Assembly (NCBI RefSeq): GCF_000813745.1
Contig: NZ_JWLC01000006.1
Location: 1 to 64,000 of the forward strand
Direction: 5' to 3'
Length of the DNA stretch: 64,000 nucleotides
Source of the DNA: Leisingera sp. ANG-M1
Lineage (GTDB): Bacteria > Pseudomonadota > Alphaproteobacteria > Rhodobacterales > Rhodobacteraceae
Shown here: positions 9,052 to 35,819 of the stretch, in pieces
Position numbering within the stretch: position 1 is the first letter of the stretch
Layout of the letters: each line of letters starts with the position of its first letter
Notes under the pieces: model-generated
Database searches by the model: none
The model's input: only the letters and a program-made list of their open reading frames with translations
What the model was told of the DNA's origin: nothing
Program-made: the position numbers and the translations under genes

Positions 9052-9173
9052 CGCCCGGCGCAACCCGCAGGCGTTTGGAGCGGGCCCGGGTGACATTCAC
9101 CCTGTCCAGAGCGGACGGCAGGGGCTATATGGCATCCCGACTCCTCATTCCCTTTGCTGAAGGAAGCTGCCAG

Positions 9174-15198: not shown

Positions 15199-16682
15199 TC
15201 GGCCTCCTTCAGTTCCTTCCGGTCTTTCAGCACCCGCAGGATGTGGACCGCCAGAACGATGATGATGAGTAGAAACAGGATGAACGCCACCGGGCGGTCG
15301 ATGAAATCGAGGGGTTCCTTCACCCGCGCCATGCCCGCGCGCAGTTTGACCTCCATGATACCGCCCAGGACCATACCCAGAATGATCGGCACGGAGGGCA
15401 GCGACAGGCGCTTCAGCACATAGCCGAGGATGCCGAAAGCCGCAGCCATTACGCAGTCGGTGGCGGAGTTGCGCAGGGAATAGACCCCGACAAAGCTGAG
15501 CGTCAGGATGCAGACGCCAAGGAAGCGGTTCGGGATGCGCACCACCTGGATCAGCGATTTGGTAGCAAAGAGCAGGAAAACAAGAACCAGGACATTCAGC
15601 ACCAGCAGCGCCAGGTAGAGCGCAACGACAAAATCCATGTCGTTCTGAAACAGCCCCGGCCCCGGAACCACGTTATGCACGTAGAATACCGACAGCATCA
15701 TCGCCGTCAGCGCCTCGCCCGGGATGCCCAGCGCCAAGAGCGGCACCATGGCGGCGGCGGGCACAGCATTGTTGGCGGTCTCCGCCGCAATCAGCCCCTC
15801 CGACGATCCGTTGCCAAAGTCCTGCGGGCGCTTCGATGTTTTCTGTGCGTAGGTGTAAGACATGAACTGGGCGGTGAATTCACCAACACCGGGGATCATG
15901 CCCATCAGCACACCGAAGCTGGCCGAAACACCGGCAACCCGCGGATGACGCGCCAGCTCGCGCAGCCCCTGGAACATGCCGCCGCGCAGGCGGGTCAAGC
16001 GGACCTTCTCGTCCTCGTCCGTCAGCAGAACAAAGGCCTGCGAGATTGCAAACAGACCCAGCACCACGACGATCAGATTGATGCCGCCGCCCAGGAAGTC
16101 CTGCCCGAAGGTATAGCGCTGGGTGTATTTCACCGGTTCCAGCCCGATGGTCTGCAGGAAGATCCCGAAACAGGCCAGCGCGCCGGCAACCAGTGCCTGG
16201 CCGCGGTGGGCGACTACCACAAGGATCAGGCCCAGCAGTGCCGCCAGGAAGATCTCGCGCGAACCGAACATGGGCGCGATTTTGGCCAGCACCGGGGCAA
16301 ACAGGATCAGGCAGATGACCGAAAAGATGCCGCCGAAGAAACTGGCGGAGTAAGCAAGGCTCAAAGCCCGGCGCGGCTCGCCCCGTGCGGTCATCGGATA
16401 ACCGTCATAGGTTGTCAGCGCATTAACCGCGGTGCCGGGTGTGTTGATCAGGATCGCCGGGATTGACCCGCCGTACATGGACGACCCGTAGATCCCAAGC
16501 AGCACTGTCAGGCCAACAATCGGGTCCATCGAAAAGGTGGCAGGCAAAAGTATCGCAATCGCGACCGCCGGGCCGACGCCGGGGATAGCGCCGATCAGCA
16601 CGCCGCCCACTGAACCGGCCAGCAGCGCCAGCGCCACGTCCCAGCGCATCAGAATGTCTATTGCAGAGAGGATCAGGTCCAT
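15063..16682 (-). CDS. tctA: Tripartite tricarboxylate transporter, large membrane subunit
   Basis: TctA-family permease with about 11-12 membrane segments. Typical motifs are the N-terminal GVLIGAIPGVGPAVAIAILLP and the internal repeat GVLMGMIPGVGEFTAQFMSY. It works with TctB and the periplasmic TctC to import a carboxylate. Length 539 residues exceeds the usual 500. The last 45 residues (from WQTNRSS) are basic, lack membrane segments and come from an alternative reading of the 5' end of the ALDH gene, giving an unusual 136-base overlap. A lost stop codon just at the ALDH start, or a sequence error, would explain this. Confidence 0.92.
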   Translation of the reverse strand: MDLILSAIDILMRWDVALALLAGSVGGVLIGAIPGVGPAVAIAILLPATFSMDPIVGLTVLLGIYGSSMYGGSIPAILINTPGTAVNALTTYDGYPMTARGEPRRALSLAYSASFFGGIFSVICLILFAPVLAKIAPMFGSREIFLAALLGLILVVVAHRGQALVAGALACFGIFLQTIGLEPVKYTQRYTFGQDFLGGGINLIVVVLGLFAISQAFVLLTDEDEKVRLTRLRGGMFQGLRELARHPRVAGVSASFGVLMGMIPGVGEFTAQFMSYTYAQKTSKRPQDFGNGSSEGLIAAETANNAVPAAAMVPLLALGIPGEALTAMMLSVFYVHNVVPGPGLFQNDMDFVVALYLALLVLNVLVLVFLLFATKSLIQVVRIPNRFLGVCILTLSFVGVYSLRNSATDCVMAAAFGILGYVLKRLSLPSVPIILGMVLGGIMEVKLRAGMARVKEPLDFIDRPVAFILFLLIIIVLAVHILRVLKDRKELKEAEWQTNRSSTSFGSLMLRRKNSFLKDHGKKVRARHSKLLRRLTDLF

Positions 16683-16691
16683 AAGAGGCGC

Positions 16692-17222
16692 TCAGAGATA
16701 GAGAATGAAGAAACTGCGCAAGGCGCCGGGCAGATACTCATAGATCAGCGCGCCCGGAATCTTGACCGACAGAAAGCCCTTGAACAGCACCACGACGATG
16801 ACGGCAAAGGCAACACCGGCCCACAGCATGAAACGGCTGCGGTACCCCATCCGCCAGCACAAGAGCGGCACGAAGGCCATTGTCACAGGCAGGTAGCCGA
16901 TAACGGGCACCAGCAGGACGCACCCCATGAACCAGCCCGCAAACTCAAACACCTGCCCCCAGCGTTTGACTTCCCACAGGTCATAGCGGCTGACCCGGCG
17001 CCAGGGCAGTTTGTACAAATGCAGGCCGCCCATCAGCACCATGCCGCCAATGGCGACGGCAGGCCAGAACCGGGGCTGGGCAAACAGCTTGGTCTTTTTG
17101 ACCCAGGTGGTCTGTTCACCGATCAGGGCCAGCAGCAGCAGTGCTGCGCCCACCAGGATCAGGGCAAAGACCAGCTGACCGCGCCGGGGTCCGGCAAAGC
17201 GGCGTTCGCGTTCCGAAGGCAT
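16692..17222 (-). CDS. tctB: Tripartite tricarboxylate transporter, small membrane subunit
   Basis: TctB-family protein, 176 residues from ATG 17222, with four predicted membrane segments (near LVFALILVGAALLLLALI, FWPAVAIGGMVLMG, FAGWFMGCVLLVPVIGYLPV and MLWAGVAFAVIVVVLF). A GTG at 17258 would add 12 residues but falls within the stem-loop behind tctC, so the ATG is preferred; its ribosome site is weak either way. It lies 9 bases before tctA. TctB proteins are poorly conserved; topology and position make the call. Confidence 0.82.
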   Translation of the reverse strand: MPSERERRFAGPRRGQLVFALILVGAALLLLALIGEQTTWVKKTKLFAQPRFWPAVAIGGMVLMGGLHLYKLPWRRVSRYDLWEVKRWGQVFEFAGWFMGCVLLVPVIGYLPVTMAFVPLLCWRMGYRSRFMLWAGVAFAVIVVVLFKGFLSVKIPGALIYEYLPGALRSFFILYL

Positions 17223-17254
17223 GTGAGGAGTTCTTTGTCCGCGCGAGTGAAAGA

Positions 17255-17282
17255 GCACCGGGGCCCGTCAAGGCCCCAGTGC
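17255..17282 (-). promoter_or_regulatory. Stem-loop between tctC and tctB
   Basis: Eleven-base arms with one mismatch (17255-17265 and 17272-17282, core GGGGCC/GGCCCC) lie 11 bases beyond the tctC stop. No T-run follows. As with the phnD stem, it probably protects the binding-protein message or attenuates downstream expression. Confidence 0.5.
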
Positions 17283-17292: not shown

Positions 17293-18240
17293 TTACTCAG
17301 ACAGCAGACCGCCGATGCGGGCCATGGTGTCGATGTCATTGGAGACGCGGGCGGCGCTGTCGTCCGCGCTTTGCCAGTAGACCAGCGCGCCGGTTTCCTT
17401 GGCGACGTTCTGGGCGCGTTCGCTCATCACGGTCTTCTCTGCGACGGCGATGATCTTGTCGCGCACGTCCTGCGGCGTATCCTTGGTCACGAAAAGGCCG
17501 TTCCACAATGCGATGTTCAGGCTCTCGTCCAGCTCGCCGATGGTTGGCGCATCAGGCGCCAGCGGAATGCGCTCGTCGGTGATCGAGACCAGCACTTTGA
17601 CCTGATCCAGGCACGGCAGCACCAGCTGCAGCGTGGTGTTGATCACATCGGCATCGCCCGAGGCCAGCGTGTTGCAGTCCAGCGCATCAAAGGCCGCGTC
17701 CGAGCCCCATTCAAAACCTGCGTTCTTGGCATAGGCCTTGGTCACCTGGGTCGGCGTCAGCACATCGCCGAAATGGCCCAGCGCAACATCGTTTTCCTTG
17801 GCATAGGCCGCCAGCTCTTCCATCGAGCTGTAGGGCGCATCGCCTGAGGTGGCGATCACAAAGGGATAGGTCAGGAAGATCCCCAGCGGATCGAATTTTT
17901 CAGGCGTCAGCGGCGGGATGTCGATCTGGTGGCCCATCACCGGCACGCCGATCACAAAAGAGCCGATGGTGTAGCCGTCGCTTGGCGCATTGGCGACCTC
18001 AATCGCACCGGGGAACGGCCCGCCACCGCCGCCCGGCTTGTTCACCACGGCCGCCGCGACGCCGTATTCGTTCTGAAAATCCTCGGCAATCATCCGGGTC
18101 AGCACGTCTTCCAGGTCACCCGGCGGCCACGGCACAATGAAGTTCACCGGCTTCTCCGGATATTCGGCCTGCGCGGCAACCGCGCTCAGCCCCAAAGCCG
18201 CCGCTGCGGCCGCGCCTTTCATCAGCGTTTTGAGTTTCAT
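17293..18240 (-). CDS. tctC: Tripartite tricarboxylate transporter, periplasmic binding protein
   Basis: TctC/Bug-family solute receptor, 315 residues. A Sec signal peptide with a long alanine-rich core (cleavage near AQAEYP) is followed by YPEKPVNFIVPWPPGDLEDVLTRM and VVNKPGGGGGPFPGAIEVANAPSDGYTIG, the usual carboxylate-binding loops. The ligand is inferred to be a carboxylate; Bug specificity cannot be read from sequence. It is the first gene of the minus-strand operon, facing iclR across a palindromic operator. Confidence 0.92.
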   Translation of the reverse strand: MKLKTLMKGAAAAAALGLSAVAAQAEYPEKPVNFIVPWPPGDLEDVLTRMIAEDFQNEYGVAAAVVNKPGGGGGPFPGAIEVANAPSDGYTIGSFVIGVPVMGHQIDIPPLTPEKFDPLGIFLTYPFVIATSGDAPYSSMEELAAYAKENDVALGHFGDVLTPTQVTKAYAKNAGFEWGSDAAFDALDCNTLASGDADVINTTLQLVLPCLDQVKVLVSITDERIPLAPDAPTIGELDESLNIALWNGLFVTKDTPQDVRDKIIAVAEKTVMSERAQNVAKETGALVYWQSADDSAARVSNDIDTMARIGGLLSE

Positions 18241-18264
18241 GGTTTTCCTCCCAGTTTTTCAAGT

Positions 18265-18294
18265 TGGTTCATTATTCGAACCATTGGTTTGAAT
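18265..18294. promoter_or_regulatory. Overlapping palindromes, candidate IclR operator
   Basis: TGGTTC (18265-18270) and GAACCA (18278-18283) form one inverted repeat. ATTCGAACC (18274-18282) and GGTTTGAAT (18286-18294) form a second with one mismatch, sharing the GAACC half site. The pair sits 25 bases before the tctC start and about 110 bases before iclR. Divergent position and palindromic AT-centred form fit an IclR-family operator. Confidence 0.6.
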
Positions 18295-18401
18295 TTAGAT
18301 TGACAGCCCGTCCCGTTATCTGTCAAGAAAATTGCATCACGGGTGCGCCTTTTTCGGAACCGGCCGCCCTCAAGGACGACACAGGGAGCACGGGCAAGCG
18401 C

Positions 18402-19181
18402 ATGGGAACTGTATCCAAAGCCTTGTCATTACTGACATATTTCAACCACGGCCGGACCGGAATCGGGCTTAGCGATCTCACACGCCTGTCCGGTATGAAC
18501 AAGGCAACCGTCTACCGGCTGATGACCGAGCTGCAGGAATCAGGCTTTGTCGAACAGACCGATGGCGACCGGATGTACCGCCTTGGCCCGCAGGTTCTGC
18601 GGCTTGCAGCGCTGCGCGAGGCGGCAGTGCCGATTCTCTCAGTTTCGCGGCGGGTACTGCGGGATCTGAGTGATGAGACCGGCGAAACCACCCACCTGTC
18701 GCTGTTGCAGGGCAGCCAGCTGAATTCGCTGTCGCATGCCTACTCGCCGCGTCATGCCACCAAAGTGATGATGGAAGATGCAGAGGTATTGACCTACCAC
18801 GGCACCAGCTCCGGGCTTGCCGTTCTCGCCTATGCCGACACCGGGTTTGTCGACGAAGCATTGGCCCAGCCGCTGCAAGTCCACACCGCGGAAACCATCA
18901 CTGACCCGCATCAGATCCGCATTCAGATAGCCGAGGTCCGCGAAACCGGCATGGCCCAGTCCATCGGCGGCTTCGAGGCCGATGTGCATTCCCATGCGGT
19001 ACCGGTCTTTGGTCCCGACCGCCAGGTGATCGGCGCGCTGGCCGTAGCTGCGCCAGTGTCGCGCATGACCTCTGAACAAAAAGAGCTGATCCCGGCCGCC
19101 CTGCGCCGCGCGGGCGCCACCCTCACCCATCGTATCGGCGGCTCGGCGCCTGCGGACTATCCGCAGGGCAGCACCGCCTGA
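18402..19181 (+). CDS. IclR-family transcriptional regulator
   Basis: A 259-residue regulator with an N-terminal winged helix (VSKALSLLTYFNHGRTGIGLSDLTRLSGMNKATVYRLM) and a C-terminal GAF-like effector domain (RDLSDETGETTHLSLLQG; SHAVPVFGPDRQVIGALAVAAP). The frame is open upstream to 18264, which would run through the operator, so ATG 18402 is chosen; its AGGGAG is somewhat distant. It is divergent from tctCBA and followed after 45 bases by the aminotransferase gene. It most likely controls both directions in response to the imported carboxylate or its product. Confidence 0.88.
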   Translation: MGTVSKALSLLTYFNHGRTGIGLSDLTRLSGMNKATVYRLMTELQESGFVEQTDGDRMYRLGPQVLRLAALREAAVPILSVSRRVLRDLSDETGETTHLSLLQGSQLNSLSHAYSPRHATKVMMEDAEVLTYHGTSSGLAVLAYADTGFVDEALAQPLQVHTAETITDPHQIRIQIAEVRETGMAQSIGGFEADVHSHAVPVFGPDRQVIGALAVAAPVSRMTSEQKELIPAALRRAGATLTHRIGGSAPADYPQGSTA

Positions 19182-19226: not shown

Positions 19227-20582
19227 ATGAAAGACTCCAATTTCCTGAAAGAGCACAACGCCAAGTCCCTTTGGCACCCGATGGCGCATCCCGGCGACAG
19301 CCTGGCCAACCCGCCCGCAATCATCACATCTGCACAGGGAGTGAAGATCACCGATGTGGACGGGCACGAGGTGGTCGACGCAGTCGGCGGCCTGTGGAAC
19401 GTGAACCTTGGCTTCTCCTGCCAGCCTGTGAAGGACGCAATCGCCGCGCAGCTGGATGTGCTGCCCTACTACTCCACCTTCCGCGGCACCACCAATGATC
19501 AGGTGATCCAGCTGGCCGAGGAGCTGCGCAAATTCTTCGCCCCCGACGGGCTCACCCGCGCTTTCTTCACCTCCGGCGGCTCGGATTCAGTGGAGACCGC
19601 CCTGCGGCTGGCGCGCCAGTACCACAAGATCCGCGGCGAGGCCGGACGCACCAAGTTCCTGAGCCTGAAGAAAGGCTACCACGGCACCCACATGGGCGGC
19701 GCCTCAGTGAACGGCAATGCCAATTTCCGCACCCAGTACGAGCCGCTGCTGCCTGGCTGTTTCCAGATCCCGGCGCCCTATACCTACCGCAATCCCTTCA
19801 ACGAAACTGACCCGGAGCGCCTCGCCCAGCTTTGCCTGCAAGCGCTGGAGGATGAGATCGCCTTCCAGGGCGCAGGCACCATTGCCGCCTTCATCATGGA
19901 GCCGATCCTGGGCGCCGGCGGTGTGATCCCGCCGCACGAAAGCTTCATGCCCGGCGTGCGCGAGATCTGTTCGAAAAACGGCATCCTGCTGATTGCCGAT
20001 GAAGTGATCACTGCCTTTGGCCGCACCGGCTCATGGACCGGCTCGCGCCACTGGGGCGTGCAGCCGGACATGATGGCCACCGCCAAGGCGATCACCAATG
20101 GCTACTTCCCCTTTGGTGCGGTGATGATCGCAGATCATATGACCGAGACTTTCGAGAAGGACACCACCGGCAAGGCCGCCATCGGCCACGGCTATACCTA
20201 TTCCGGCCACCCGGTCGGGGCGGCAGCGGCGCTGGCCTGCCTGGAGGAGACACTGAAGCTGAACGTGCCGGAGAATGCTGCTGCCCGGGGCACGCAGCTC
20301 CACCAGGGCCTTCTGGCATTGCAGCAGAAATACGAGCTGATCGGCGACGTGCGCGGCGGCCACGGGCTGATGAGCGCGCTGGAACTGGTCTCCGACCGTG
20401 CCACCAAGGCCCCGGTTGATAAAAAGACCATCGGCAAGCTGCAGGAAGTTGCGTACGAGGCCGGCGCCATGGTGCGGGTCTCCGGCCCCAACATCATCCT
20501 CTCCCCGCCGCTGGTGCTGAGCGAGGCCGAGGCGGCCACTATCCTCCACGCCCTGGACGCAGGCTTTGCGGCGGTGAGCTAA
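19227..20582 (+). CDS. Class III PLP aminotransferase
   Basis: Omega-amine or beta-alanine:pyruvate type transaminase, 451 residues. It has FFTSGGSDSVETALRLAR (phosphate-binding segment), KKGYHGTHMGGASVNG, LIADEVITAFGRTG (Asp 258 binding the PLP nitrogen) and Lys 287 in TAKAITNGYFPFGAV as Schiff-base lysine. Members move the terminal amino group of diamines, beta- or omega-amino acids, or taurine-like compounds to pyruvate or 2-oxoglutarate. Co-transcribed with iclR and near an aldehyde dehydrogenase, it fits an amine or amino-acid catabolic route. The substrate cannot be named from sequence. Confidence 0.93.
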   Translation: MKDSNFLKEHNAKSLWHPMAHPGDSLANPPAIITSAQGVKITDVDGHEVVDAVGGLWNVNLGFSCQPVKDAIAAQLDVLPYYSTFRGTTNDQVIQLAEELRKFFAPDGLTRAFFTSGGSDSVETALRLARQYHKIRGEAGRTKFLSLKKGYHGTHMGGASVNGNANFRTQYEPLLPGCFQIPAPYTYRNPFNETDPERLAQLCLQALEDEIAFQGAGTIAAFIMEPILGAGGVIPPHESFMPGVREICSKNGILLIADEVITAFGRTGSWTGSRHWGVQPDMMATAKAITNGYFPFGAVMIADHMTETFEKDTTGKAAIGHGYTYSGHPVGAAAALACLEETLKLNVPENAAARGTQLHQGLLALQQKYELIGDVRGGHGLMSALELVSDRATKAPVDKKTIGKLQEVAYEAGAMVRVSGPNIILSPPLVLSEAEAATILHALDAGFAAVS

Positions 20583-20706: not shown

Positions 20707-20775
20707 TGATACGGAAACAGGCGCAGCTGCCGCAGCCGCGCCTGTTGCATCAAGCTCTTCTGATGTTCCGTATCA
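20707..20775. repeat. Nested inverted repeat reaching into the ferredoxin stop
   Basis: TGATACGGAA (20707-20716) pairs exactly with TTCCGTATCA (20766-20775), and inside it AACAGGCGC (20716-20724) pairs with GCGCCTGTT (20738-20746). The right arm includes the ferredoxin stop codon. A bidirectional terminator or message-end structure between convergent genes is plausible. TGATACGG also occurs in the repeat at about 9962. Confidence 0.55.
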
Positions 20776-21084
20776 GGCCTCCGGCACTTCCAGCACCAGC
20801 CCGTCCAGATCCGGATGCGCCTCAATCTGGCAGCTGAGGCGGCTGGTTTCCCGCCGCACCTCTGCCAGATCCAGCATCGCATCTTCGAACCCTCCAGCCG
20901 TACCGCATTTCGCCGCCCACTCCGGATCCACATAGACGTGGCAGGTGGCGCAGGCGAGGCAGCCGCCGCACTCGCCCACGACCCCTGACACATCATGAGC
21001 CAGGGCTGCTTCCATCAGGCTCTGGCCATAGTCGACCGTTTCCGTGACAGCTTCGCCGCCAGGCAATTTCCAGGTTACTTGCAT
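20773..21084 (-). CDS. Adrenodoxin-type [2Fe-2S] ferredoxin
   Basis: A 103-residue electron carrier. Cluster cysteines follow the C-x5-C-x2-C...C pattern: C39, C45 and C48 in GECGGCLACATC plus the late cysteine in RLSCQIEAHPDLDGLVLEVP. An extra cysteine (C42) lies inside the loop. This class donates electrons to bacterial P450s. It is 20 bases downstream of the GS-like gene and in the same transcript as the P450, so it is the probable P450 partner. No ferredoxin reductase is seen nearby. Confidence 0.92.
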   Translation of the reverse strand: MQVTWKLPGGEAVTETVDYGQSLMEAALAHDVSGVVGECGGCLACATCHVYVDPEWAAKCGTAGGFEDAMLDLAEVRRETSRLSCQIEAHPDLDGLVLEVPEA

Positions 21085-21104
21085 CGGCCTTCCTCTGCGG
21101 ATGA

Positions 21105-22394
21105 TCAGATGAAATGCACGTAGAAATCGCGCATGCCGTCGCCTTCCAGGTCACGGGTCTTGCGCACCTCCTTGCGCTTCATGAAGACGTGGTTGGCAAC
21201 CAGCTCCGGTCCGACAGCCTCAGCCAGAGCAGTATCCTTCTCCAGGTCTGCAACCGCACCCTTCAGGTCTACGGCGGTGCCTTCGCGGGCATCGGTGCGG
21301 TCGAACCCGTCGCCGGTTTCCATCGGCGGCAGCTGGTGTCCGTTCTCCACCCCCAGCCGCGCCGCCTGCAGGACAGCCGCAACCGTGGTGTAGGGGTTGG
21401 AGGAGGCATCGGCCATACGGTGCTCCAGCCGCGCCTTGGCGCCGCCTTCCGAGCTGATCCGCGTGGTCACATTGCGATGGTCGCCGCCCCAGTTCTGCCA
21501 ATAGCCCGACAGCGAGCCGGGCTGCAGCCGCATGTAGCTGTTCGCTGTAGGAGCAATCAGCCCCGCCAGCCCCTTATGGTGATGCAACAGCCCCGCCAGG
21601 CAGCCGCGCGCCAGATCGTTCATGTGCTCCGGCCCGCCCCGCGGCCCCGAGGACAGCGCGTTGCCGCCCGCCTCATCCGCAAAGGAAAAGTTGATATGCA
21701 TGCCCGAGCCGCCCGCCTCGGCCACCGGTTTCGGCATGAAAGTGAGGACAATGCCATATTCAAGCGCCACCTCGCGCGCCATCAGGCGGAACAGAACGAT
21801 GTCATCCACCGCCTTCACCGCGTCGTCAAAGGTGAGCGTGTATTCAAACTGCGGGCTGTCGAATTCAGCGGTGATCATGTCGAGCGAAAAGCCCATGTCA
21901 TCCGCCATCGCCCAGATCCGGTCATTGAACCGCAACGGGTCAGCAAACGGCCCGGTGCCATAAACAACCCCGCCCGGAGCGTCATAGGGCATCAGCCGCC
22001 CGCGGTCGTCAGCCTGCAGGGCAAAGGCCTCCAGCTCTATCCCGACCTTGGGTGTCAGCCCGTGTTTCTGCCAGTCGGCGACCGCCCGTTTAAGGGTGCC
22101 GCGCGGGCAAAGCGCCAGCGGCTGGCCTTCATCATCGTATAGATCGCCCAGCACCACCTGGGTTGATGCGTGCCAGCTGTCGCGGATGTCGTCATGCAGC
22201 CATTTCATCTCCATATCCGGCAGGCCCTGTTTCACCATTGAACCCGGCGCATCCAGCAAGTCCCGGTCATAGTGGGTGCCAAAGACCGACCGGCAGAACC
22301 TTGTCGAGTCATCGCCGATCTTGGAATTTGGCAGATATTTCCCCCGCATGATGCTGAGGTGGTCGCAGAACATCGCGCGCAGGCGGGTTTTCAT
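21105..22394 (-). CDS. Glutamine-synthetase-like ligase (probable gamma-glutamylamide synthetase)
   Basis: GS-superfamily enzyme, 429 residues. It has GIELEAFAL (metal-binding glutamates), ITAEFDSPQFEYTL, the beta-grasp/catalytic segment FMPKPVAEAGGSGMHINFSF, and LIAPTANSYMRLQPGS then EHRMADASSNPYTTVAAVL. These match GlnT/PuuA/IpuC-like ligases rather than housekeeping GlnA, which is longer and carries the adenylylation site. Such ligases join glutamate to an amine. The start has GGAAGGA. Position between a P450 and a ferredoxin gene mirrors actinobacterial cyclic-amine clusters. Activity on an external amine is inferred; a glutamine role in nitrogen assimilation remains possible. Confidence 0.88.
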   Translation of the reverse strand: MKTRLRAMFCDHLSIMRGKYLPNSKIGDDSTRFCRSVFGTHYDRDLLDAPGSMVKQGLPDMEMKWLHDDIRDSWHASTQVVLGDLYDDEGQPLALCPRGTLKRAVADWQKHGLTPKVGIELEAFALQADDRGRLMPYDAPGGVVYGTGPFADPLRFNDRIWAMADDMGFSLDMITAEFDSPQFEYTLTFDDAVKAVDDIVLFRLMAREVALEYGIVLTFMPKPVAEAGGSGMHINFSFADEAGGNALSSGPRGGPEHMNDLARGCLAGLLHHHKGLAGLIAPTANSYMRLQPGSLSGYWQNWGGDHRNVTTRISSEGGAKARLEHRMADASSNPYTTVAAVLQAARLGVENGHQLPPMETGDGFDRTDAREGTAVDLKGAVADLEKDTALAEAVGPELVANHVFMKRKEVRKTRDLEGDGMRDFYVHFI

Positions 22395-22501
22395 GGCTCT
22401 CGGTCCTTCCCTGTTGGACTGTCATCGGCATCGTTTCCCGTGCCTTATTACTTAACATATTTAGCGGTTATTGCGGAGTCTTTCCTGCGAAGACGCCGAG
22501 T

Positions 22502-23761
22502 TCACGCCGCCTGCACCCGCACTGGCAGCTCCTTGATGCCGCCGACAAAGTTCGAGCGCAGGAATTTATGCGGCCCCGCGGCCTCGATATGCCGGATACG
22601 CTTGGCCAGCTCCTGGAACAGCACCGTGACTTCCAGCCGTGCAAGCCACATGCCTAGGCACACATGCGGACCAAACTGGCCAAAAGACAGATGCCGGTTC
22701 GGGCTGCGGTGAAGATTCACGTGAAATGGATCGTCGAAATAGCCCTCATCCCGGTTGGCGGAAGAAAACCAGTACAGCACCTTGTCGCCTTCGCGGATGG
22801 TCTTGCCGTGCATCTCCACATCCCGGGTCGCAGTGCGGCGGAAATAGAGCGCCGGAGTTGCCCAGCGGATGATCTCATCCGCTGCGGTCTCCCAGACCGC
22901 ACCGCCCTCCTGCATCTGCGCCAGCAATTCGGGCTGATGGCACATCGCCTGGATACCCGCGGCAATCGAATAACGCGTGGTGTCATTCCCTGCTGCCACC
23001 AGCAGGCAGAAGAAGTTGCGAAATTCGGTTTCGGTGATCACCGAGCCATCCTTGGCCGGCTCCAGAATCAGGTTTAGCACGCCCGACGTGTCACCCTTGC
23101 GCGCTTTCTCCTCCATCAGCTCCTTGGCATAGATGTACAGCTCCGCTCCGGCGGGCGAGTTGAACGGCATCATCCGGAACTCATCCGTCTGCATCATGTC
23201 CAGCACATGCGAGGTGAAATCCGGGTCGGTATTGGCAATCAGCGCATCACCCTTCTCCACCAGCCAGGGCAGATCCGCTTCCGGCAGGCCAACCACCCGG
23301 CCCAGCATCCGCATAGGCAGCTGGCGGGCAATCTCCTTGGTGGCGTCAAACTCTCCCTTGGCCAGCGCCTGATCCAGGATTTCAGCGCAAAGATCGCGAA
23401 TGTCCTGCTCATACTGCGCCATCGTGGTTTTTGAGAACGCCTTCAGCAGTTTCATCCGCACCTTGGAATGCTCCGGCGGATCGGTTTCCTGAAAAGTGCG
23501 CCGCGCCAGGTATTCTTCGTAGGACTGATCTTCCATCCGGATCCCACGGGCGGACGAGAATACCTCGGTGTTCTTGTTCATCACCGTGATGTCTTCATAG
23601 CGGGTCACCGACCAGAAGTTCTTGCCGCCCTCATACTCGGTCCAGTGCAGAGGATCTTCACGCCGCAGCCGCGCAAAGGTGTTATGCGGCGCGCCGCTCG
23701 CAAATGCGTCGTGGCTGCTCAGATCCGCGTAGCCGTCATCCGTGGGGGTCCAAACTGTCAT
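22502..23761 (-). CDS. Cytochrome P450 monooxygenase
   Basis: Soluble bacterial P450, 419 residues. The I-helix motif is AAGNDTTR, the K-helix E-x-x-R is in ADEIIRWATP, and the heme loop is FGQFGPHVCLG with the axial cysteine at 368. This loop is one residue longer than the commonest FGxGxHxCxG form, as in CYP125/142-type enzymes. No signal or anchor is present. ATG 23761 follows AGGGAAG. It is the first gene of a transcript with the GS-like ligase and ferredoxin and faces the amidotransferase gene. Substrate is unknown; context suggests an amine or a sterol/terpenoid-like hydrophobe. Confidence 0.94.
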   Translation of the reverse strand: MTVWTPTDDGYADLSSHDAFASGAPHNTFARLRREDPLHWTEYEGGKNFWSVTRYEDITVMNKNTEVFSSARGIRMEDQSYEEYLARRTFQETDPPEHSKVRMKLLKAFSKTTMAQYEQDIRDLCAEILDQALAKGEFDATKEIARQLPMRMLGRVVGLPEADLPWLVEKGDALIANTDPDFTSHVLDMMQTDEFRMMPFNSPAGAELYIYAKELMEEKARKGDTSGVLNLILEPAKDGSVITETEFRNFFCLLVAAGNDTTRYSIAAGIQAMCHQPELLAQMQEGGAVWETAADEIIRWATPALYFRRTATRDVEMHGKTIREGDKVLYWFSSANRDEGYFDDPFHVNLHRSPNRHLSFGQFGPHVCLGMWLARLEVTVLFQELAKRIRHIEAAGPHKFLRSNFVGGIKELPVRVQAA

Positions 23762-23784
23762 TGCGGGCTTCCCTAATTTGCTTG

Positions 23785-23800
23785 CTTAATGTATATTAAT
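23785..23800. promoter_or_regulatory. AT-rich palindrome in P450/amidotransferase divergent promoter
   Basis: TTAAT (23786-23790) and ATTAA (23795-23799) flank GTAT in the 81-base divergent spacer. The adjoining TATTAATG also occurs on the minus strand upstream of the sulfatase-like gene (27087-27094), and CTTAACATATTTAG before the GS-like gene (22451) is similar. A shared site for the nearby GntR regulator is inferred. Confidence 0.4.
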
Positions 23801-23842
23801 GAGCATCATAAATATGTAAATGAAAATCTTGCGAGCGTTCTC

Positions 23843-24553
23843 ATGCACTTGGCCATCCTGATGACCAACACCGACGAAAGTGAATTCGCCCAAAGGCACC
23901 CAAAGGACGGGGAGAAATTCACTGATTTGATTCTGATGGCCCGCCCGGAGTGGCGCACCACGGCCTTTTCCGTAAAGGACGGGGAGTTCCCGCAGGATCT
24001 GTCTGCATTCGACGGTGCGATGATCACCGGCAGCCCTGCTTCAGTCCGCTCCGGAGCCCCCTGGATCGCGCAGCTGCTGGACCTGATCCGCAACGCCCAT
24101 GCCCGGCAATTCCCGCTGTTTGGCGCCTGCTTTGGTCATCAGGCGATCGCCTTGGCTTTGGGCGGCACCCTGGATCACAATCCCGGCGGCTGGGTGCATG
24201 GGCTGACCCGCAACCGCTTGCTGGCTCGGCCAGAGTGGGCCGCCGCGCTGCCGGATGAGATGAAACTCTACGGTTCGCACTGTGAATACGTCAGCATCCT
24301 GCCGCCAGGCGCCGCACCGCTTGCAGAGAGCAACGGCATGAATTCGGGCTGCACGCTGGGCAGACACATCTTCACAACGCAGCACCACCCGGAGATGTCG
24401 CATGGCTTCATTGCCGCGCTGACCGAAGAAATGCAGGAAACGATCGGCTCCGGCGCACACGCCCGTGCAATGGCCAGCCTGGCAGAACACTCTGACCAGC
24501 AGGCCTTTGCGGAAAGCCTGGCCCGTTTCTTCGAACAAGCCGCCCGTCCCTAA
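23843..24553 (+). CDS. Class I glutamine amidotransferase-like protein
   Basis: A 236-residue GATase1 domain protein with the nucleophile elbow FGACFGHQAIALALGG and the His-Glu part of the triad in FTTQHHPEMSHGF. It is not fused to a synthetase. Stand-alone GATases next to GS-like ligases, as in aniline and putrescine routes, hydrolyse or regulate gamma-glutamyl amides. ATG 23843 gives the family-like start MHLAILMTNTDES, but the ribosome site is weak; earlier in-frame ATG codons lie in the AT-rich promoter. Divergent from the P450 operon. Confidence 0.85.
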   Translation: MHLAILMTNTDESEFAQRHPKDGEKFTDLILMARPEWRTTAFSVKDGEFPQDLSAFDGAMITGSPASVRSGAPWIAQLLDLIRNAHARQFPLFGACFGHQAIALALGGTLDHNPGGWVHGLTRNRLLARPEWAAALPDEMKLYGSHCEYVSILPPGAAPLAESNGMNSGCTLGRHIFTTQHHPEMSHGFIAALTEEMQETIGSGAHARAMASLAEHSDQQAFAESLARFFEQAARP

Positions 24554-24616: not shown

Positions 24617-25267
24617 TTATCCCAGTGCTGCCAGCAGATCCATCACAGTGACCTGATCGAACTGCACATGCGAGATCATGGCCGCCTCTGCGCCCTCCCG
24701 GTCGTGAGCAAAAATCAATTGCGCAATTTCCCGGTGCTCTTTGGCTGATTGTGCGATGGCACCAGGGTAACGGTAGCGCGCCCGGTAATAGGCCATCAGC
24801 TTACGCGCGTTGGTCTTGATCATCTCGACCAGAAACGGGTTTCCGGACCCTTCCGCGACACAAGCATGGAAACGCAAGTTCAGCTGATAGTAACCAGCCG
24901 GATCGCTATCTCCTTTTTCCGCCGCGTGTTTTTCACAGGCAGCCACCGCCGCCTCCAGTTCCGTGGCCTGCGCCGGGGACAACCGCCGGGCCGCCAGTGC
25001 CGCAGCCTGCCCTTCCAGCCGGGCATGCACTTCAAGGATGGCCAGGAATTCCTCCAGCGTCGGCTTGAACAGCACCGCTCCTTTGCGCGGCAGCCGCTTG
25101 ATCAGACCAATCGCTTCCAGTTGGATAAACGCCTCGCGCACCGGCGTGCGGGACACCCCGTGACGCTCCACCAGCTCGCTTTCCTCCAGCGGCGCGCCGG
25201 GCACAAGCCGGCCCGCTTCGATATCGCCCAGGATCGCGTTCAGAACCTGTTCCGTCTGCCCCGCCAT
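24617..25267 (-). CDS. GntR-family regulator with FCD domain
   Basis: A 216-residue FadR-subfamily regulator. The winged helix is at about 8-65 (GRLVPGAPLEESELVERHGVSRTPVREAFIQLEAIGLI), then an all-helical FCD ligand domain (LEVHARLEGQAAALAARRLS; LNLRFHACVAEGSGNPFLVEMI; IFAHDREGAEAAMISHV). FCD regulators bind small carboxylates or amine-derived acids, often with a metal. It neighbours the P450/GS/amidotransferase genes and the sulfatase-like gene, which share an AT-rich TATTAATG motif upstream, and likely controls them. Confidence 0.88.
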   Translation of the reverse strand: MAGQTEQVLNAILGDIEAGRLVPGAPLEESELVERHGVSRTPVREAFIQLEAIGLIKRLPRKGAVLFKPTLEEFLAILEVHARLEGQAAALAARRLSPAQATELEAAVAACEKHAAEKGDSDPAGYYQLNLRFHACVAEGSGNPFLVEMIKTNARKLMAYYRARYRYPGAIAQSAKEHREIAQLIFAHDREGAEAAMISHVQFDQVTVMDLLAALG

Positions 25268-25432: not shown

Positions 25433-27061
25433 TCAGCCTTGCGGCACCGGACCCCGGTATTTTGCCGTCAGCTCCGGATCGAGCTCTTCTGCCTCGTAGA
25501 CACCAAGCAGAATACCCTTGCGCCCGGATTTGCCGCGGCGCGCCTTGATCTGCGCATCTGAAAGGGTAGTCCGCTGCGACATCCGCAGGCCCCACTCCAG
25601 CAGCCGGTCATACATCAAATCAATGATTTCCTGATGCTCTTCGCCTTTGGCCAGGTCCATCAGCTCATCCGGATCGTTCTCCAGATCAAACAGCATCGGC
25701 CGCAGCCCGCCTTCGGCATGCATAAACTTCCAGCGTGTGTCCGTCACCATGAACAGCCGCGCGTCCTTCGGCTCCAGCCCGAGCTTCTCGCACAGCGGCA
25801 TGGTGGAATAGTCGAACTCGGCAATCGCATAGTCCCGCCAGTCCGGGCTTTCCCCGCGCAGGAAAGGCATCAGCGAGCGTCCCTCCAGGATATGCGGCGC
25901 CGACTCGCCGCCTGCGGCCTCAAGAAACGTCGGCAGCAGATCGATCGCTTCCACAAGCTCGTCGCAGATTGTACCGCGGGTGCTGTCAGCTTCGGTGCGC
26001 GGGTCATAGATGATCAACGGCACTTTGATCGACGGCTCGTGGAACAGGTTTTTCTCTCCCAGCCAATGATCGCCCAAATAGTCGCCATGATCAGAGGTCA
26101 CCACAACCATCGTGTCCTGCATCCGGCCTGTTTCTTCCAGCCAGTTGAACAGCCGCCCCATCTGGTCATCGGCCTGCTTGATCAGCCCCATGTAGGCCGG
26201 GATCACTTTGTCCCGCACATCATCGCGGCTGAAGGTCTTGCCGATCTGGTTATTCATCATGCCCTGAAACACCGGATGCGCTTCCACGCGCTCGGCCTCT
26301 GAACGCACCACCGGCAGCACATGCTCCGGCCCGTACATATCGTGATATGGGGCTGGCACGATGTACGGCCAATGCGGCTTGATATAGCTGAGATGCGCGC
26401 ACCAGGGGCCTTCGGCCTGTTCGATGAACCCCATCGCCTGGCTTGTGAGCCAAGGGGTTTCGCTGTCCTCTTCAGAGATGTTTGCCGGCTTGTCCGCATT
26501 GACCATAAACCAGCCGGACGCGATATCGCCGCCCTCGGCCGCGGCGTTGGCAAAATCGTTCCAGGGGTTTTCGCCGGGATAGCCTTTGGCTTTCAGGTAT
26601 TCATTGTAGGGGCTGCGTTTGCTGTCATAAAATCCATCCGGCCCTTCCGCCCACAGCCCGTCATCGCGCACCCAGGGATCAAAGCCGCACTCCGACTGCC
26701 GCACCCCGATCACGCTGTCGGGCGCCAGGCCCAGCCGCTCCATGCCGTCCGCGTCCGCCACCATGTGGGTCTTGCCGATCAAGTGGCAGCCCATTCCCGC
26801 CCTGCGCAGGTGATCGCCCATGGTCCACTCACCGACGCGCAGCGGATAGCTGTTGAACTGCACCCCGTGGCTGGAGGGGTAACGGCCGGTGTAGCTGGAC
26901 ATGCGCGACGATCCGCAGGTGGGCGATTGCACATAGGCCCGGGTAAAGCGCACCCCCTTGGCCGCCAGCGCATCGATATGCGGCGTGTGCAGATGCGGAT
27001 GGCCTGCGCAGCTTAGATAGTCGAACCGCAGCTGGTCGAACATGATGTAGAGAATGTTCAT
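25433..27061 (-). CDS. Sulfatase-like (alkaline phosphatase superfamily) hydrolase
   Basis: A 542-residue cytosolic hydrolase (no signal peptide). The start ATG 27061 follows GGGAGG; an upstream TTG is less likely. The N-terminal metal site is FDQLRFD, and the second is TSDHGDYLGDHWLGEKNLFHE. The nucleophile segment is SPTCGSSRMSSYTGRYPS: Cys 49 should mature to formylglycine, but the usual C-x-P/A-x-R has Ser in the third place. The DQLR and HGDYLGDH patterns recall phosphonate monoesterases and choline-sulfatase-type enzymes. It may cleave a sulfate, phosphate or phosphonate ester; context gives no firm choice. Confidence 0.85.
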   Translation of the reverse strand: MNILYIMFDQLRFDYLSCAGHPHLHTPHIDALAAKGVRFTRAYVQSPTCGSSRMSSYTGRYPSSHGVQFNSYPLRVGEWTMGDHLRRAGMGCHLIGKTHMVADADGMERLGLAPDSVIGVRQSECGFDPWVRDDGLWAEGPDGFYDSKRSPYNEYLKAKGYPGENPWNDFANAAAEGGDIASGWFMVNADKPANISEEDSETPWLTSQAMGFIEQAEGPWCAHLSYIKPHWPYIVPAPYHDMYGPEHVLPVVRSEAERVEAHPVFQGMMNNQIGKTFSRDDVRDKVIPAYMGLIKQADDQMGRLFNWLEETGRMQDTMVVVTSDHGDYLGDHWLGEKNLFHEPSIKVPLIIYDPRTEADSTRGTICDELVEAIDLLPTFLEAAGGESAPHILEGRSLMPFLRGESPDWRDYAIAEFDYSTMPLCEKLGLEPKDARLFMVTDTRWKFMHAEGGLRPMLFDLENDPDELMDLAKGEEHQEIIDLMYDRLLEWGLRMSQRTTLSDAQIKARRGKSGRKGILLGVYEAEELDPELTAKYRGPVPQG

Positions 27062-27189
27062 TGGCGCCTCCCTGTCCAAGCCGATGCATTAATAAACAAG
27101 TGAAGCAATTTTGGCGAGATGTTATTGCTGACCTCCCAATCTCTCTGGCAGAAAGATAGCATTCGCCTTTCCAGCCGCCAGTTGCCAGC

Positions 27190-27889: not shown

Positions 27890-29869
27890 TCAACCCGGCG
27901 GCTCGAAATCCCTCTCGGCGGTCTCAAGAAGCAAATCTCCCGCCACGACTTGAACACCTTCCTGCACTGCAATTTTCATGACCGTGCCCGCAGCCGCAGC
28001 CCGGATTTCATGCTGCATCTTCATCGCTTCCAGCACCGCAAGCCGGCTGCCCGCAGCGACGTCTTCTCCTTCAGTCACGCAGATTTCCAGCAATTTCCCA
28101 TGCATCGGCGCAGTGACCCGGACGGGCCCGCCCTCTGCGTGAACCGCCCTCCCGGCCGCTTCGAGCGTCAGGCTGAAAAGCCGTTTGCGGGTGGCTGCGT
28201 ACAGCCTGCGTCCTTGCATCAGCCAGGCACGCAGCCCGGCCCGCGCGCCATCCACCATCCACTCTGTACCCGTCACCGCCGCAACATGCCGGGCATCTGC
28301 AACAGCAACCGTCAACCCCGCATCCGTTTCGCGGACCTGCACAGTGCCGCTGCCGTCATCCCAGGCCAGGCGGAACCTGGCTTGCGCCACTCCTCTGCCG
28401 GGCCACCCCAGCAACTCCTGTGAAATCCCGCCTGCCTTCGCCGCAAACCGCTGCTGCTGCGCCCGGTACAGAAGCGCCGCCGCCAGCGCGATCTCGCGAC
28501 TGTCCAGCGGCCGGGCTTCTGCGTTCAGGCTATGGCTGGCAATGAAATCCGTTGCCGCATTCCCTGCAGAGAATTCCGGATGATCCATTACCTGCAGCAG
28601 GAAATCGCGGTTGCAGGCCAGCCCGAACAGCACCGTTTCCTGCAGCGCAGCACGCAACCGCAGACGCGCTTCCTCCCGGGTACGGCCGTGTGCAGTCACC
28701 TTGGCTAGCAGCGGGTCGTAAAAGGAGGAAACCTCCTGCCCAGCAGCAATTCCGCTGTCCACCCGGATCCCGGCACCCGCCGGCGGCTGCCAATCTGCAA
28801 TCCGCCCCGCCTGCGGCAAAAACCCCTGTGCCGGATCCTCGGCGTAAAGCCGCGCCTCGATGGCGTGGCCGGAGATCTGCACATCCTCCTGCGTCAGCCC
28901 CAAAGCCTCACCCCGCGCTACCCGGATCTGCATCTCCACCAGGTCCAACCCTGTGATCATCTCTGTAACCGGATGCTCAACTTGCAGACGGGTATTCATC
29001 TCAAGGAAGAAATAGTCCCCCATTTCATCAAGCAGAAACTCTACCGTGCCGGCGCCCTGGTAACCGATCGCCTGCGCCGCTGCCACGGCGGCCGCCCCCA
29101 TCCGTGCCCGCAGATCCGCATCAACCGCCGGGCCCGGGGCTTCTTCCACCACCTTCTGATGGCGGCGCTGGACCGAACAATCCCGCTCGCCCAGATGGAT
29201 CACCGAACCCTGCGTATCGCCAAAGATCTGAACCTCGACATGCCGCGGACGCGCGAGCGCGCGCTCAAGGATCACCTCATCCGAGCCAAAGGCGGCCAGC
29301 GCCTCACTGCGGGCCAGTTCCAGCGCGGTCCGGAATTCCTCCGCCGTCTCCACCAGCCGCATGCCCTTGCCGCCGCCGCCGGCCGCTGCCTTGATCATCA
29401 CCGGAAAACCGATCCGCAGCGCCTCTCCTTTCAGCACATCCGCGCTCTGATCTGCGCCCTCGTAACCGGGCACGCAGCGCACCCCGGTTGCCGCCATCTT
29501 GCGCTTTGCGGCAGCCTTGTTTCCCATCAATGCGATCACGTCCGGCGGCGGCCCGATAAAAACCAGCCCAGCCTTTGCACAGGCACGGGCAAACGCTGCA
29601 TTTTCCGAGAGAAAACCATAACCCGGGTGCACTGCGCCTGCGCCTGCATCCCGTGCCGCTTTGATAATTCTCTCGATTGACAGGTAACTTCCGGCCGCAG
29701 GCCCTTCACCAATGCGCACCGTATGGTCGGCAAAGGCAACATGCGGGCTGCAGGCATCGGCATCGCTGTAAACCGCCACGCATTTCAGCCCCATCGCCCG
29801 CGCAGTGCGCATCACCCGCAAGGCAATCTCGCCACGGTTGGCCACCAGGATTGTGTCAAAGCTTCCCAC
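27890..29869 (-). CDS. Biotin carboxylase/biotin carrier subunit of an acyl-CoA carboxylase
   Basis: The alpha subunit, 659 residues from GTG 29869. The biotin carboxylase domain (about 1-445) carries the ATP-grasp segment AAAGGGGKGMRLV, the ERDCSVQRRHQKVVEEAP motif and EMNTRLQVEHPVTE. A C-terminal carrier domain holds the biotinyl lysine in LEAMKMQHEIRA. It uses ATP and bicarbonate to carboxylate biotin and passes the group to the carboxyltransferase encoded 11 bases upstream. The nearest classes are methylcrotonyl- and geranyl-CoA carboxylase (AtuF/LiuD). The substrate is unproven. Confidence 0.93.
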   Translation of the reverse strand: MGSFDTILVANRGEIALRVMRTARAMGLKCVAVYSDADACSPHVAFADHTVRIGEGPAAGSYLSIERIIKAARDAGAGAVHPGYGFLSENAAFARACAKAGLVFIGPPPDVIALMGNKAAAKRKMAATGVRCVPGYEGADQSADVLKGEALRIGFPVMIKAAAGGGGKGMRLVETAEEFRTALELARSEALAAFGSDEVILERALARPRHVEVQIFGDTQGSVIHLGERDCSVQRRHQKVVEEAPGPAVDADLRARMGAAAVAAAQAIGYQGAGTVEFLLDEMGDYFFLEMNTRLQVEHPVTEMITGLDLVEMQIRVARGEALGLTQEDVQISGHAIEARLYAEDPAQGFLPQAGRIADWQPPAGAGIRVDSGIAAGQEVSSFYDPLLAKVTAHGRTREEARLRLRAALQETVLFGLACNRDFLLQVMDHPEFSAGNAATDFIASHSLNAEARPLDSREIALAAALLYRAQQQRFAAKAGGISQELLGWPGRGVAQARFRLAWDDGSGTVQVRETDAGLTVAVADARHVAAVTGTEWMVDGARAGLRAWLMQGRRLYAATRKRLFSLTLEAAGRAVHAEGGPVRVTAPMHGKLLEICVTEGEDVAAGSRLAVLEAMKMQHEIRAAAAGTVMKIAVQEGVQVVAGDLLLETAERDFEPPG

Positions 29870-29880
29870 GCCCGCCCCCG

Positions 29881-33280: not shown

Positions 33281-33449
33281 TGAACCTCCTTCCGGCTGCT
33301 GCTCCTCTATTGAATATAAGCCAACTCCGTGGATTGGCGCTTTCCGATGCCAATCGTGCCGCCCGCTCCGCAGCTCCGGCAACGCTGACCCGGCGTTTGC
33401 CACAGCAGAACGCAGCGTCGGCCCACGGAATACGTTACAAGTTTCTCGA

Positions 33450-34784: not shown

Positions 34785-35762
34785 ATGTATGCTCAGATGA
34801 TCAAATCCGAAGCGACCCAGGACGATCCGGAAAAGCTGGCGGCCTTCCAGGCCCGCATCGACGCGGGCGAGAAGATCGAGCCCAAGGACTGGATGCCCGA
34901 AGGCTACCGCAAGACGCTGATCCGCCAGATCGGCCAGCATGCGCATTCGGAAATCGTCGGCCAGCTGCCCGAGGGCAACTGGATCACCCGCGCGCCGACG
35001 CTGGAGCGCAAGGCGATCCTGCTCGCCAAGGTGCAGGATGAGGCGGGCCACGGCCTCTATCTCTACTGCGCGGCGGAGACCCTGGGCGTTTCTCGTGACG
35101 AGATCACCGAAATGCTGCTCGACGGGCGTATGAAATACTCCTCGATCTTCAACTACCCGACGCTGAACTGGGCCGACATCGGCGCGGTGGGCTGGCTGGT
35201 CGATGGTGCGGCAATCATGAACCAAGTTCCACTGCAGCGGACCTCCTTCGGCCCCTACTCCCGCGCGATGATCCGCATCTGCAAGGAGGAAAGCTTCCAC
35301 CAGCGCCAGGGCTATGACGCCATCCGCAAGATGGCTGAAGGCACGCCGGAGCAGAAGAAGATGGCCCAGGATGCGCTGAACCGCCTCTGGTACCCGTCTC
35401 TGATGATGTTCGGGCCGTCCGACAAGGACTCGGTCCATTCCGCCCAGTCGATGGCCTGGAAGATCAAGATGAACACCAACGACGAGCTGCGCCAGAAGTT
35501 CGTCGACCAGACCGTGCCGCAGGCCGAGTACCTTGGCCTCACCGTCCCCGACCCGGACCTGAAATGGAACGAGGAGCGCGGCCATTACGACTACACCGAC
35601 CCGGACTGGTCCGAGTTTTTTGACGTGATTAAAGGCAACGGCCCCTGCAACGTCGACCGCCTCGCCGCCCGCAACAAGGCCTGGGACGACGGCAAATGGG
35701 TGCGTGACGGGCTGCTGGCCCATGCCAGGAAAAAGGCCGCGCGCAAGCACGCCGCCGAGTAA
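34785..35762 (+). CDS. paaA: 1,2-phenylacetyl-CoA epoxidase catalytic subunit
   Basis: Ferritin-like diiron monooxygenase subunit, 325 residues, which with PaaC forms the core that epoxidises the ring of phenylacetyl-CoA. Likely iron ligands are E56 (HSEIVGQL), E86-x-x-H89 (QDEAGH) and E169-x-x-H172 (EESFH). ATG 34785 follows CGGAGG and gives MYAQMIKSE. The first three-quarters align with enteric PaaA; the C-terminus is Lys/Arg-rich. It sits in the order paaJ-A-B-C-D-E. Confidence 0.96.
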
Positions 35763-35819
35763 ACCCAAGCTTTCCGGCGCCCCGCAGCGCGGCGCCCCCT
35801 TCAGCAAGGAGGAATGAAC

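Follow-up and report, generated by a model that had tools for sequence, protein, structure and literature searches.

A conserved gene cluster for a P450, a glutamine synthetase-like ligase and an amidotransferase in roseobacters, and its predicted role in arylethylamine catabolism

Introduction

Which compound is handled by a gene cluster that combines a cytochrome P450 (P450), a glutamine synthetase (GS)-like ligase, a [2Fe-2S] ferredoxin and a stand-alone class I glutamine amidotransferase (GATase)? The question is raised by a locus of Leisingera sp. ANG-M1 that lies in the stretch of DNA analysed here, positions 1 to 64,000 of contig NZ_JWLC01000006.1 (64,000 nucleotides, henceforth the window; the genome assembly consists of 91 contigs). 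An earlier, sequence-only reading had described minus-strand P450, GS-like and ferredoxin genes together with a divergent GATase gene and a GntR regulator with an FCD domain. It had proposed that an amine is glutamylated, oxidized by the P450 and freed of its gamma-glutamyl group, and had named cyclic amines such as pyrrolidine, piperidine and morpholine, alkylamines and diamines as candidate substrates. On the basis of gene order, active-site residues and co-occurrence across genomes, we on balance favour a role in the breakdown of arylethylamines, with tyramine as the likeliest substrate; glutamylation, P450 hydroxylation and deglutamylation would lead into the homoprotocatechuate pathway.

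Results

Conservation of the gene cluster

All five genes of the sequence-only reading were recovered as open reading frames (ORFs) at the positions it gave, and their Pfam families agree with its assignments. The minus strand carries the ferredoxin, the presumed electron donor of the P450 (20773-21084, Fer2), the GS-like ligase (21105-22394, Gln-synt_C), predicted from residue changes and its position in a clade of its own to be a gamma-glutamyl-arylethylamide synthetase, the P450 (22502-23761, p450), a predicted hydroxylase of the gamma-glutamylated amine, and the GntR/FCD regulator (24617-25267, GntR and FCD). The GATase, a predicted gamma-glutamyl-amide hydrolase (PF00117), is encoded on the plus strand by an ORF at 23789-24553. 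Its start may be at 23843, the orthologue at locus L101 opening at the corresponding Met; the orthologue of strain TM1040 is annotated a few residues longer than the equivalent of that start.

Conservation was followed in 198 genomes of the family, where GS relatives were accepted at E <= 1e-60, and in 80 named loci, where gene counts are limited to loci with long enough flanks. GS relatives occur in 45 of the 198 family genomes, no two of which share a genus. Across the class, 6 of 289 genomes have one at E <= 1e-80, that of Leisingera sp. ANG-M1 included. Among the named genomes scanned, Leisingera sp. ANG-Vp is the closest, with a GS of 99% identity. The search for the order P450, GS, ferredoxin and GATase that the sequence-only reading had called for revealed strong synteny, the lack of which would have counted against that reading: in all 74 named loci that could be evaluated, a P450 sequence and GS stand side by side on the same strand, and a GATase gene is found near GS in 70 of 70, 66 times on the opposite strand. 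GntR is near GS in 62 of 70 loci and a ferredoxin gene beside it in 41 of 76. The gene set is beyond chance association. In 72 of the 74 loci, a single uninterrupted match covers 90% or more of the window P450. Of the P450 in L064 only about 64 codons are left, as is the case in L005, and in L041 the gene is divided between frames. This remnant lies between GS and GATase (7843-8018 in L064), and the GS gene survives there without the P450; L064 and L005 probably stem from the same organism because identities match in both loci. Other incomplete copies are those of the GATase in L104 and of GS in L099 (split) and L107 (contig end). Where the ferredoxin gene is missing, no ferredoxin Cys pattern was detected in up to 900 bp downstream of GS. 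A gene for an FkbM-type methyltransferase is located between GS and the aminotransferase gene in L111 (16430-17176) and about 10 other loci; it takes the place of the missing ferredoxin in TM1040 and Tritonibacter loci, and some loci, L046, L056 and L065 among them, have both.

The sequence-only reading had added an aminotransferase and an aldehyde dehydrogenase (ALDH) as possible later steps, which understated the matter: both belong to a conserved second module that is part of the same system. In the window it comprises, on the plus strand, a class III aminotransferase of the PRK07481 type according to family profiles, a predicted arylethylamine:keto-acid transaminase (19227-20582), and an IclR regulator (18264-19181, family profile and synteny). 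On the minus strand follow the solute-binding protein TctC (17293-18240), TctB (16692-17258), the TctA permease (15063-16682), an ALDH of the Aldedh family predicted to oxidize arylacetaldehydes (13714-15198) and a UPF0261 (Tm-1-like ATP-binding) protein (12371-13609, PRK02399 above cut-off and synteny). TctB and TctA were assigned by synteny, their TM1040 counterparts being annotated as TctB and permease, and TctC by synteny and its BugD- and TctC-type relatives in the PDB, which are uninformative on the ligand. The best NCBIfam model for the ALDH is PuuC, below its cut-off, and identity to E. coli PuuC is 49%. In 62 evaluable named loci, the aminotransferase gene is near GS 47 times, IclR 50 times and TctC 49 times, and the aminotransferase, IclR, TctCBA, ALDH and UPF0261 genes remain with the P450-GS pair across rearranged orders. 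In L095 and L097, a single strand carries the order TctCBA-P450-GS-GATase-IclR-aminotransferase, and UPF0261 and ALDH genes lie close by; L139 and L140, which come from one genus and have a GS of about 49% identity, read TctBAC-GATase-P450-GS-UPF0261 with ALDH, IclR and aminotransferase alongside. We also inspected 20 aminotransferase loci from genomes without a GS at the cut-off. TctCBA, ALDH or UPF0261 are kept in 17 of them (exceptions L164, L174 and L176), markers for hpa genes or the decarboxylase described below are above threshold in four (L159, L164, L172 and L174), and paa genes are present in one (L157). Whether or not P450-GS is present, the UPF0261 gene is associated with the aminotransferase/TctABC module in many gene orders.

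Residues and relatives of the predicted enzymes

The GS-like ligase was compared with E. coli GlnA, the roles of whose residues (metal, glutamate, nucleotide and ammonium site) we take from the GlnA literature. It retains the equivalents of E129, E131, E212, E220, H269, G265, R321, R339, R344, R355, E357 and R359. N264 is replaced by G and H271 by N, positions at which PuuA has A and H; D50 was not counted because two alignments place it differently. The ammonium-site residues are lost in the window protein and 12 aligned relatives (13 sequences), with V for Y179 and L or M for E327. As judged from these alignments, the pattern, with the metal and most substrate residues kept and the ammonium site lost, is that of gamma-glutamyl amide synthetases. 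In a tree of 27 sequences, the window GS belongs to a 13-row clade of its own (support 100/100, stem 1.54), separate from GlnA, PuuA, IpuC of Paenarthrobacter aurescens TC1 and an NpaA1/DcaQ-like pair; the deep placement of this clade is weakly supported (74/50). No grouping with housekeeping GlnA, one of the outcomes that the sequence-only reading had named as refuting it, was seen. A housekeeping function was rejected, as the genome has a separate GlnA-like paralogue (L143, 61% identical to E. coli GlnA) and the window GS stands in a clade apart.

Among the P450 homologues with at least 40% identity, the I-helix motif AGNDTT is present in 132 of 132, and 41 of the 132 rows did not match the heme-motif pattern. 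The heme Cys with its flanking Gly and the E-x-x-R motif are invariant in an alignment of six P450s with 56-90% identity, as are R75, E77, D78 and Q79. This stretch would correspond to the B-C loop, and R75 could hold the glutamyl carboxylate. The closest relatives in the PDB are a reconstructed CYP125 ancestor, CYP124, CYP268, CYP126 and CYP125. An extra residue before the heme Cys initially looked unusual; this point was dropped, as we take the residue to be common to P450s of the CYP124/125 type. The ferredoxin reaches 39 of 132 bits with the fdx_isc model, far under the cut-off. In agreement with the sequence-only reading, no ferredoxin reductase gene adjoins the cluster in the window; two PF14759 matches are present elsewhere in the genome, one of them in an open frame of only 85 amino acids.

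In the GATase, the motifs FGACFGHQ and QHHPE, containing the Cys and the His-x-Glu residues, are intact; neither pattern was recognised in 23 of 112 homologue rows. The best of five reference GATases is that of an aniline-dioxygenase-type cluster on plasmid pI2 (38% identity over 155 amino acids). In the PDB, gamma-glutamyl peptidase 1, a plant enzyme, matches best. The order of glutamylation, P450 oxidation and gamma-glutamyl removal, with aminotransferase and ALDH acting afterwards, put forward by the sequence-only reading fits the conserved gene set, the loss of the ammonium site in GS and the Cys and His-Glu motifs of the GATase.

Links to decarboxylase, hpa and paa genes

The differing neighbours of the P450-GS pair point one way, to arylethylamines. 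In three genomes of one genus (L136-L138), a PF00282 decarboxylase gene is located directly beside P450-GS-ferredoxin and an adjoining reductase-like gene. The same loci carry HpaD_Fe-, HpaG- and HpaE-like genes, the proteins of L137 being below the curated cut-offs. A Novosphingobium locus (L112) encodes a P450, GS and ferredoxin with 57%, 48% and 43% identity and proteins that are 59%, 75% and 49% identical to the HpaD_Fe-, HpaG- and HpaE-like proteins of the L136-L138 type. HpaR and HpaBC are encoded near the cluster in L139 and L140, and L140 also has HpaH, HpaG and HpaD, with HpaB-1, HpaH and HpaD over the cut-offs. On one strand, L124 reads P450-GS-HpaF-HpaE-HpaD-decarboxylase-HpaG-HpaH, its HpaF, HpaE, HpaD and decarboxylase being 57, 78, 72 and 64% identical to the counterparts in the genome of Leisingera sp. 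ANG-M1, and L133 reads aminotransferase-HpaF-HpaE-HpaD-HpaG-HpaH-P450-GS-ferredoxin. Altogether, hpa or decarboxylase markers were found in 10 of 20 stretches chosen mostly for a divergent GS and in 7 of the 80 named loci, 16 others of which have paa markers. In the window, PaaA, PaaB, PaaC and PaaE homologues are encoded at 34785-38519 (79-89% identical to TM1040), preceded by a thiolase gene at 33559. The decarboxylase and homoprotocatechuate neighbours and the co-occurrence of GS with HpaD described below do not bear out the cyclic and alkyl amines and diamines named by the sequence-only reading.

Leisingera sp. ANG-M1 itself has an hpa operon (L177 on contig C4). HpaR is encoded on one strand, and the other carries, in order, genes for HpaF, HpaE, both types of homoprotocatechuate dioxygenase, the decarboxylase, HpaG, HpaH and HpaI. 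HpaR, HpaE (798 bits, cut-off 638), HpaD_Fe and HpaD (412/321 and 467/316 for the two dioxygenases) and HpaH (380/351) are over their cut-offs, and HpaI (362 of 369), HpaG and HpaF are under them. The two types of 3,4-dihydroxyphenylacetate 2,3-dioxygenase (TIGR02298 and TIGR02295, both over the NCBIfam cut-offs) are encoded side by side at 8463-9521 and 9535-10515 of L177. The decarboxylase is closest in the PDB to 3,4-dihydroxyphenylalanine (DOPA) and tyrosine decarboxylases. HpaB (TIGR02309, TIGR02310) found no match in this genome at E <= 1e-80.

Across the 198 family genomes, HpaD is present in 38 of 45 with GS and in 27 of 153 without it (p 2e-16, a value that takes no account of phylogeny), the decarboxylase in 40 of 45 versus 54 of 153 and the aminotransferase in 43 of 45 versus 43 of 153. 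Of the 38 genomes with both GS and HpaD, 9 have the two no more than 25 kb apart (p 3e-9); the corresponding figure for the best aminotransferase hit and HpaD is 17 of the 59 genomes with both (p 7e-18). These values assume a binomial null of one random place in 3.5 Mb. Positions of both decarboxylase and HpaD were compiled for part of the genomes only; of the 24 with both, 16 have the two genes no more than 5 kb apart. HpaB-1 was matched in 6 of the 198 genomes (4 over the cut-off) and HpaB-2 in 6 (none over the cut-off), one genome belonging to both groups. A match to HpaB is missing in 58 of the 65 HpaD genomes: seven have either HpaB, 34 have GS without HpaB and 24 have neither. The aminotransferase occurs in 20 of the latter 24, and so does the decarboxylase in 20. 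The genomes of 43 of the 80 named loci were examined as well, a set not independent of the family genomes since several pairs share coordinates (e.g. G110/G520 and G138/G516); HpaD was found in 39 and HpaB-1 over the cut-off in none. The other dioxygenase profile (HpaD_Fe, TIGR02298) was applied only to those GS genomes in which TIGR02295 had no match (7 family and 4 named, 11 in all) and was over the cut-off in 7 of them; G110 and G520, both among the 11, are apparently duplicates of one genome. At least one homoprotocatechuate dioxygenase type is therefore present in 42 of 45 family and 42 of 43 named GS genomes, figures to be set beside the TIGR02295 counts alone for the GS-lacking genomes.

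Comparison with known systems

The sequence-only reading had regarded the merger of P450, GS and GATase as possibly new. The combination is present, and it has a precedent. Plasmid pTC2 of P. aurescens TC1 (L113) carries the GS-like ipuC, two GATase genes and genes for a P450, a ferredoxin, a ferredoxin reductase, an ALDH and an aminotransferase, and the isopropylamine (Ipu) pathway reportedly proceeds in the order glutamylate, oxidize, hydrolyse. The likeness is one of gene content: GS and P450 of the window are only 27% identical to their TC1 counterparts, with GS in its own clade, so that the window cluster is not orthologous to Ipu by IpuC and the monooxygenase. The TC1 GATase beside the P450 gave no blast match to the window GATase, and the second TC1 GATase is 25% identical. 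TC1 further differs in its adjacent ferredoxin reductase gene, in the lack of annotated TctABC and UPF0261 genes in its 17 kb, and in an aliphatic substrate. The pTC2 cluster is useful as a characterizable comparator.

Systems for aniline, chloroaniline and 1-naphthylamine (AtdA, DcaQT, NpaA) share with the window the pairing of a GS-like ligase with a class I GATase, the GATase similarity to pI2 given above and the change of E327 to Leu. They have a ring-hydroxylating dioxygenase where the window has a P450, and their GS is only 27-29% identical. According to one paper, which describes a glutamyl organic amide synthetase class, these systems act on an aromatic amine and oxidize the ring after glutamylation, as in the scheme proposed here, and a GATase-like enzyme of aniline dioxygenase systems returns gamma-glutamylanilide to aniline, limiting its level (PMC11335346). 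By analogy, the GATase of the present cluster may act on the substrate as well as on the product. The E. coli Puu pathway likewise comprises a ligase, an oxidizing enzyme, an ALDH, a gamma-glutamyl hydrolase and a class III aminotransferase. It differs in that PuuB is an oxidase and not a P450, and similarity is low for PuuD and the GATase (31% over 72 amino acids) and for GS (30%). The HpaBC route for tyramine and 4-hydroxyphenylacetate shares the predicted end product and the hpa operon; it differs in the enzyme, no HpaB match being present in the genome of Leisingera sp. ANG-M1, and in the compound hydroxylated, here predicted to be a masked amine instead of the free acid.

In Gulosibacter, P450 and GS genes have consecutive locus tags, and GS is discussed under nitrogen assimilation (PMC9477822). 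Strain O3.65 (L059), in whose genome we found HpaD, is described in the available part of its paper with few homoprotocatechuate genes and without mention of 'P450' or 'glutamine synthetase' (PMC5064897); the accessible part of PMC12442348 mentions neither of these terms nor 'homoprotocatechuate'. Among the open-licence papers searched we recognised none that describes this cluster or bacterial catabolism via gamma-glutamyl-tyramine.

Other features of the window

In Leisingera and in several loci of the Phaeobacter type, GntR is followed by a probably unrelated gene for a sulfatase/PehA-like phosphoric or sulfuric ester hydrolase (25433-27079 in the window). For the region 27890-33403, visual inspection suggests biotin carboxylase and carboxyltransferase subunits for two ORFs and a resemblance to AtuA for a third of 639 amino acids, possibly for acyclic terpene or branched acyl-CoA catabolism. 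The promoter and terminator scan of the window did not exceed chance level, and the Rfam and tRNA scans gave zero hits.

Discussion

The proposed scheme builds on the gene set and its conservation, on active-site residues and on the linkage to and co-occurrence with hpa and decarboxylase genes, all of which are observed. All of the reactions, together with the substrate, the hydroxylated position and the choice of glutamyl amide by the GATase, are predictions. The GS-like ligase would join glutamate to tyramine. The resulting gamma-glutamyl-tyramine would be hydroxylated on the ring by the ferredoxin-fed P450, and the GATase would take the glutamyl group off gamma-glutamyl-dopamine. Aminotransferase and ALDH would then convert dopamine to 3,4-dihydroxyphenylacetate (homoprotocatechuate), to be consumed by the meta-cleavage enzymes of the hpa operon elsewhere in the genome. 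Since this operon holds an aromatic-amino-acid decarboxylase gene, the route could start from tyrosine. Phenethylamine may use the same aminotransferase and dehydrogenase and exit via the neighbouring paa genes. More tentatively, we propose that roseobacters and some sphingomonads have a previously undescribed amine-first route, in which tyrosine or tyramine would be hydroxylated as gamma-glutamyl-tyramine by a dedicated P450, with glutamate as a temporary handle and HpaBC bypassed. The strategy of glutamylation, oxidation and hydrolysis is already known; its pairing with a P450, a transaminase, TctABC and the homoprotocatechuate pathway, and a tyramine route without HpaBC, appear to be undescribed in the open-licence papers searched.

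Several observations weigh against a tyramine pathway of this kind. The cluster and the hpa operon of Leisingera sp. ANG-M1 are located on different contigs (C56 and C4), and the cluster is instead near paa genes. No GATase gene was found near P450-GS in L136-L138 or L112, and 35 of 76 loci have no ferredoxin gene beside GS. L064 and L005 retain only a P450 remnant, and L041 has a split P450. A TctABC transporter would not usually be expected for an amine, and the scheme assigns no role to UPF0261. With regard to the profiles, whose p values all disregard phylogeny, GS and HpaB are both absent from 24 HpaD genomes, neither homoprotocatechuate dioxygenase type was found in 3 of 45 family and 1 of 43 named GS genomes, and HpaB-type matches exist in 4 of 45 GS genomes and in L139 and L140. 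In the named set, 6 of 43 genomes add HpaB-1 matches short of the cut-off, the strongest reaching 451 of 480 bits. The P450-GS pair is therefore not simply a replacement for HpaBC. On one reading, a trunk of decarboxylase, aminotransferase and hpa genes would serve DOPA and dopamine, and the P450-GS-GATase module would extend this trunk to tyrosine and tyramine.

Within the same arylethylamine pathway, the P450 could perform another step, either para-hydroxylation of gamma-glutamyl-phenethylamine, giving the tyramine derivative, or O-demethylation of a methoxy-tyramine. This version would suit the paa genes that accompany the cluster in TM1040, in the window and in 16 of the 80 named loci, and genomes with both HpaB and P450-GS need no second meta-hydroxylase. 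We nevertheless think it unlikely in view of the 39 of 43 named GS genomes with HpaD and none with HpaB-1 over the cut-off: something must add the second hydroxyl group in these organisms, and a P450 making only tyramine would leave that step missing. The resemblance in gene kinds to pTC2 of TC1 and the consecutive P450 and GS genes reported for Gulosibacter (PMC9477822) could speak for the catabolism of aliphatic or cyclic amines, similar to isopropylamine or to pyrrolidine, piperidine and morpholine. This is improbable considering the 27% identity of GS and P450 to those of TC1, the aromatic-acid and aromatic-amino-acid decarboxylase genes that adjoin the divergent relatives, and the co-occurrence of GS with HpaD. 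It is very improbable that the cluster is biosynthetic and has a gamma-glutamyl catecholamine as its product, whether for metal binding, as a pigment or as a signal, with the GATase trimming any excess. The term gamma-glutamyldopamine does occur once in a paper on pond snails, and the GATase-like enzyme of aniline degraders is said to limit gamma-glutamylanilide (PMC11335346); however, the transporter, aminotransferase, ALDH and, in several loci, ring-cleavage genes are catabolic company.

If the tyramine pathway exists as proposed, it would explain how homoprotocatechuate is supplied in roseobacters that have HpaD and no HpaBC, GS being present in 34 of the 58 HpaD genomes lacking HpaB. It would provide a P450 that makes protected dopamine from tyramine, and the vague notion of a 'GS/P450 operon' would become a prediction with a named substrate and with intermediates detectable by liquid chromatography-mass spectrometry. 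With GS present in 45 of 198 family genomes of different genera, the system is a common and so far unnamed trait of marine bacteria, one that would connect aromatic amines of biological origin with the cycling of carbon and nitrogen in the sea.

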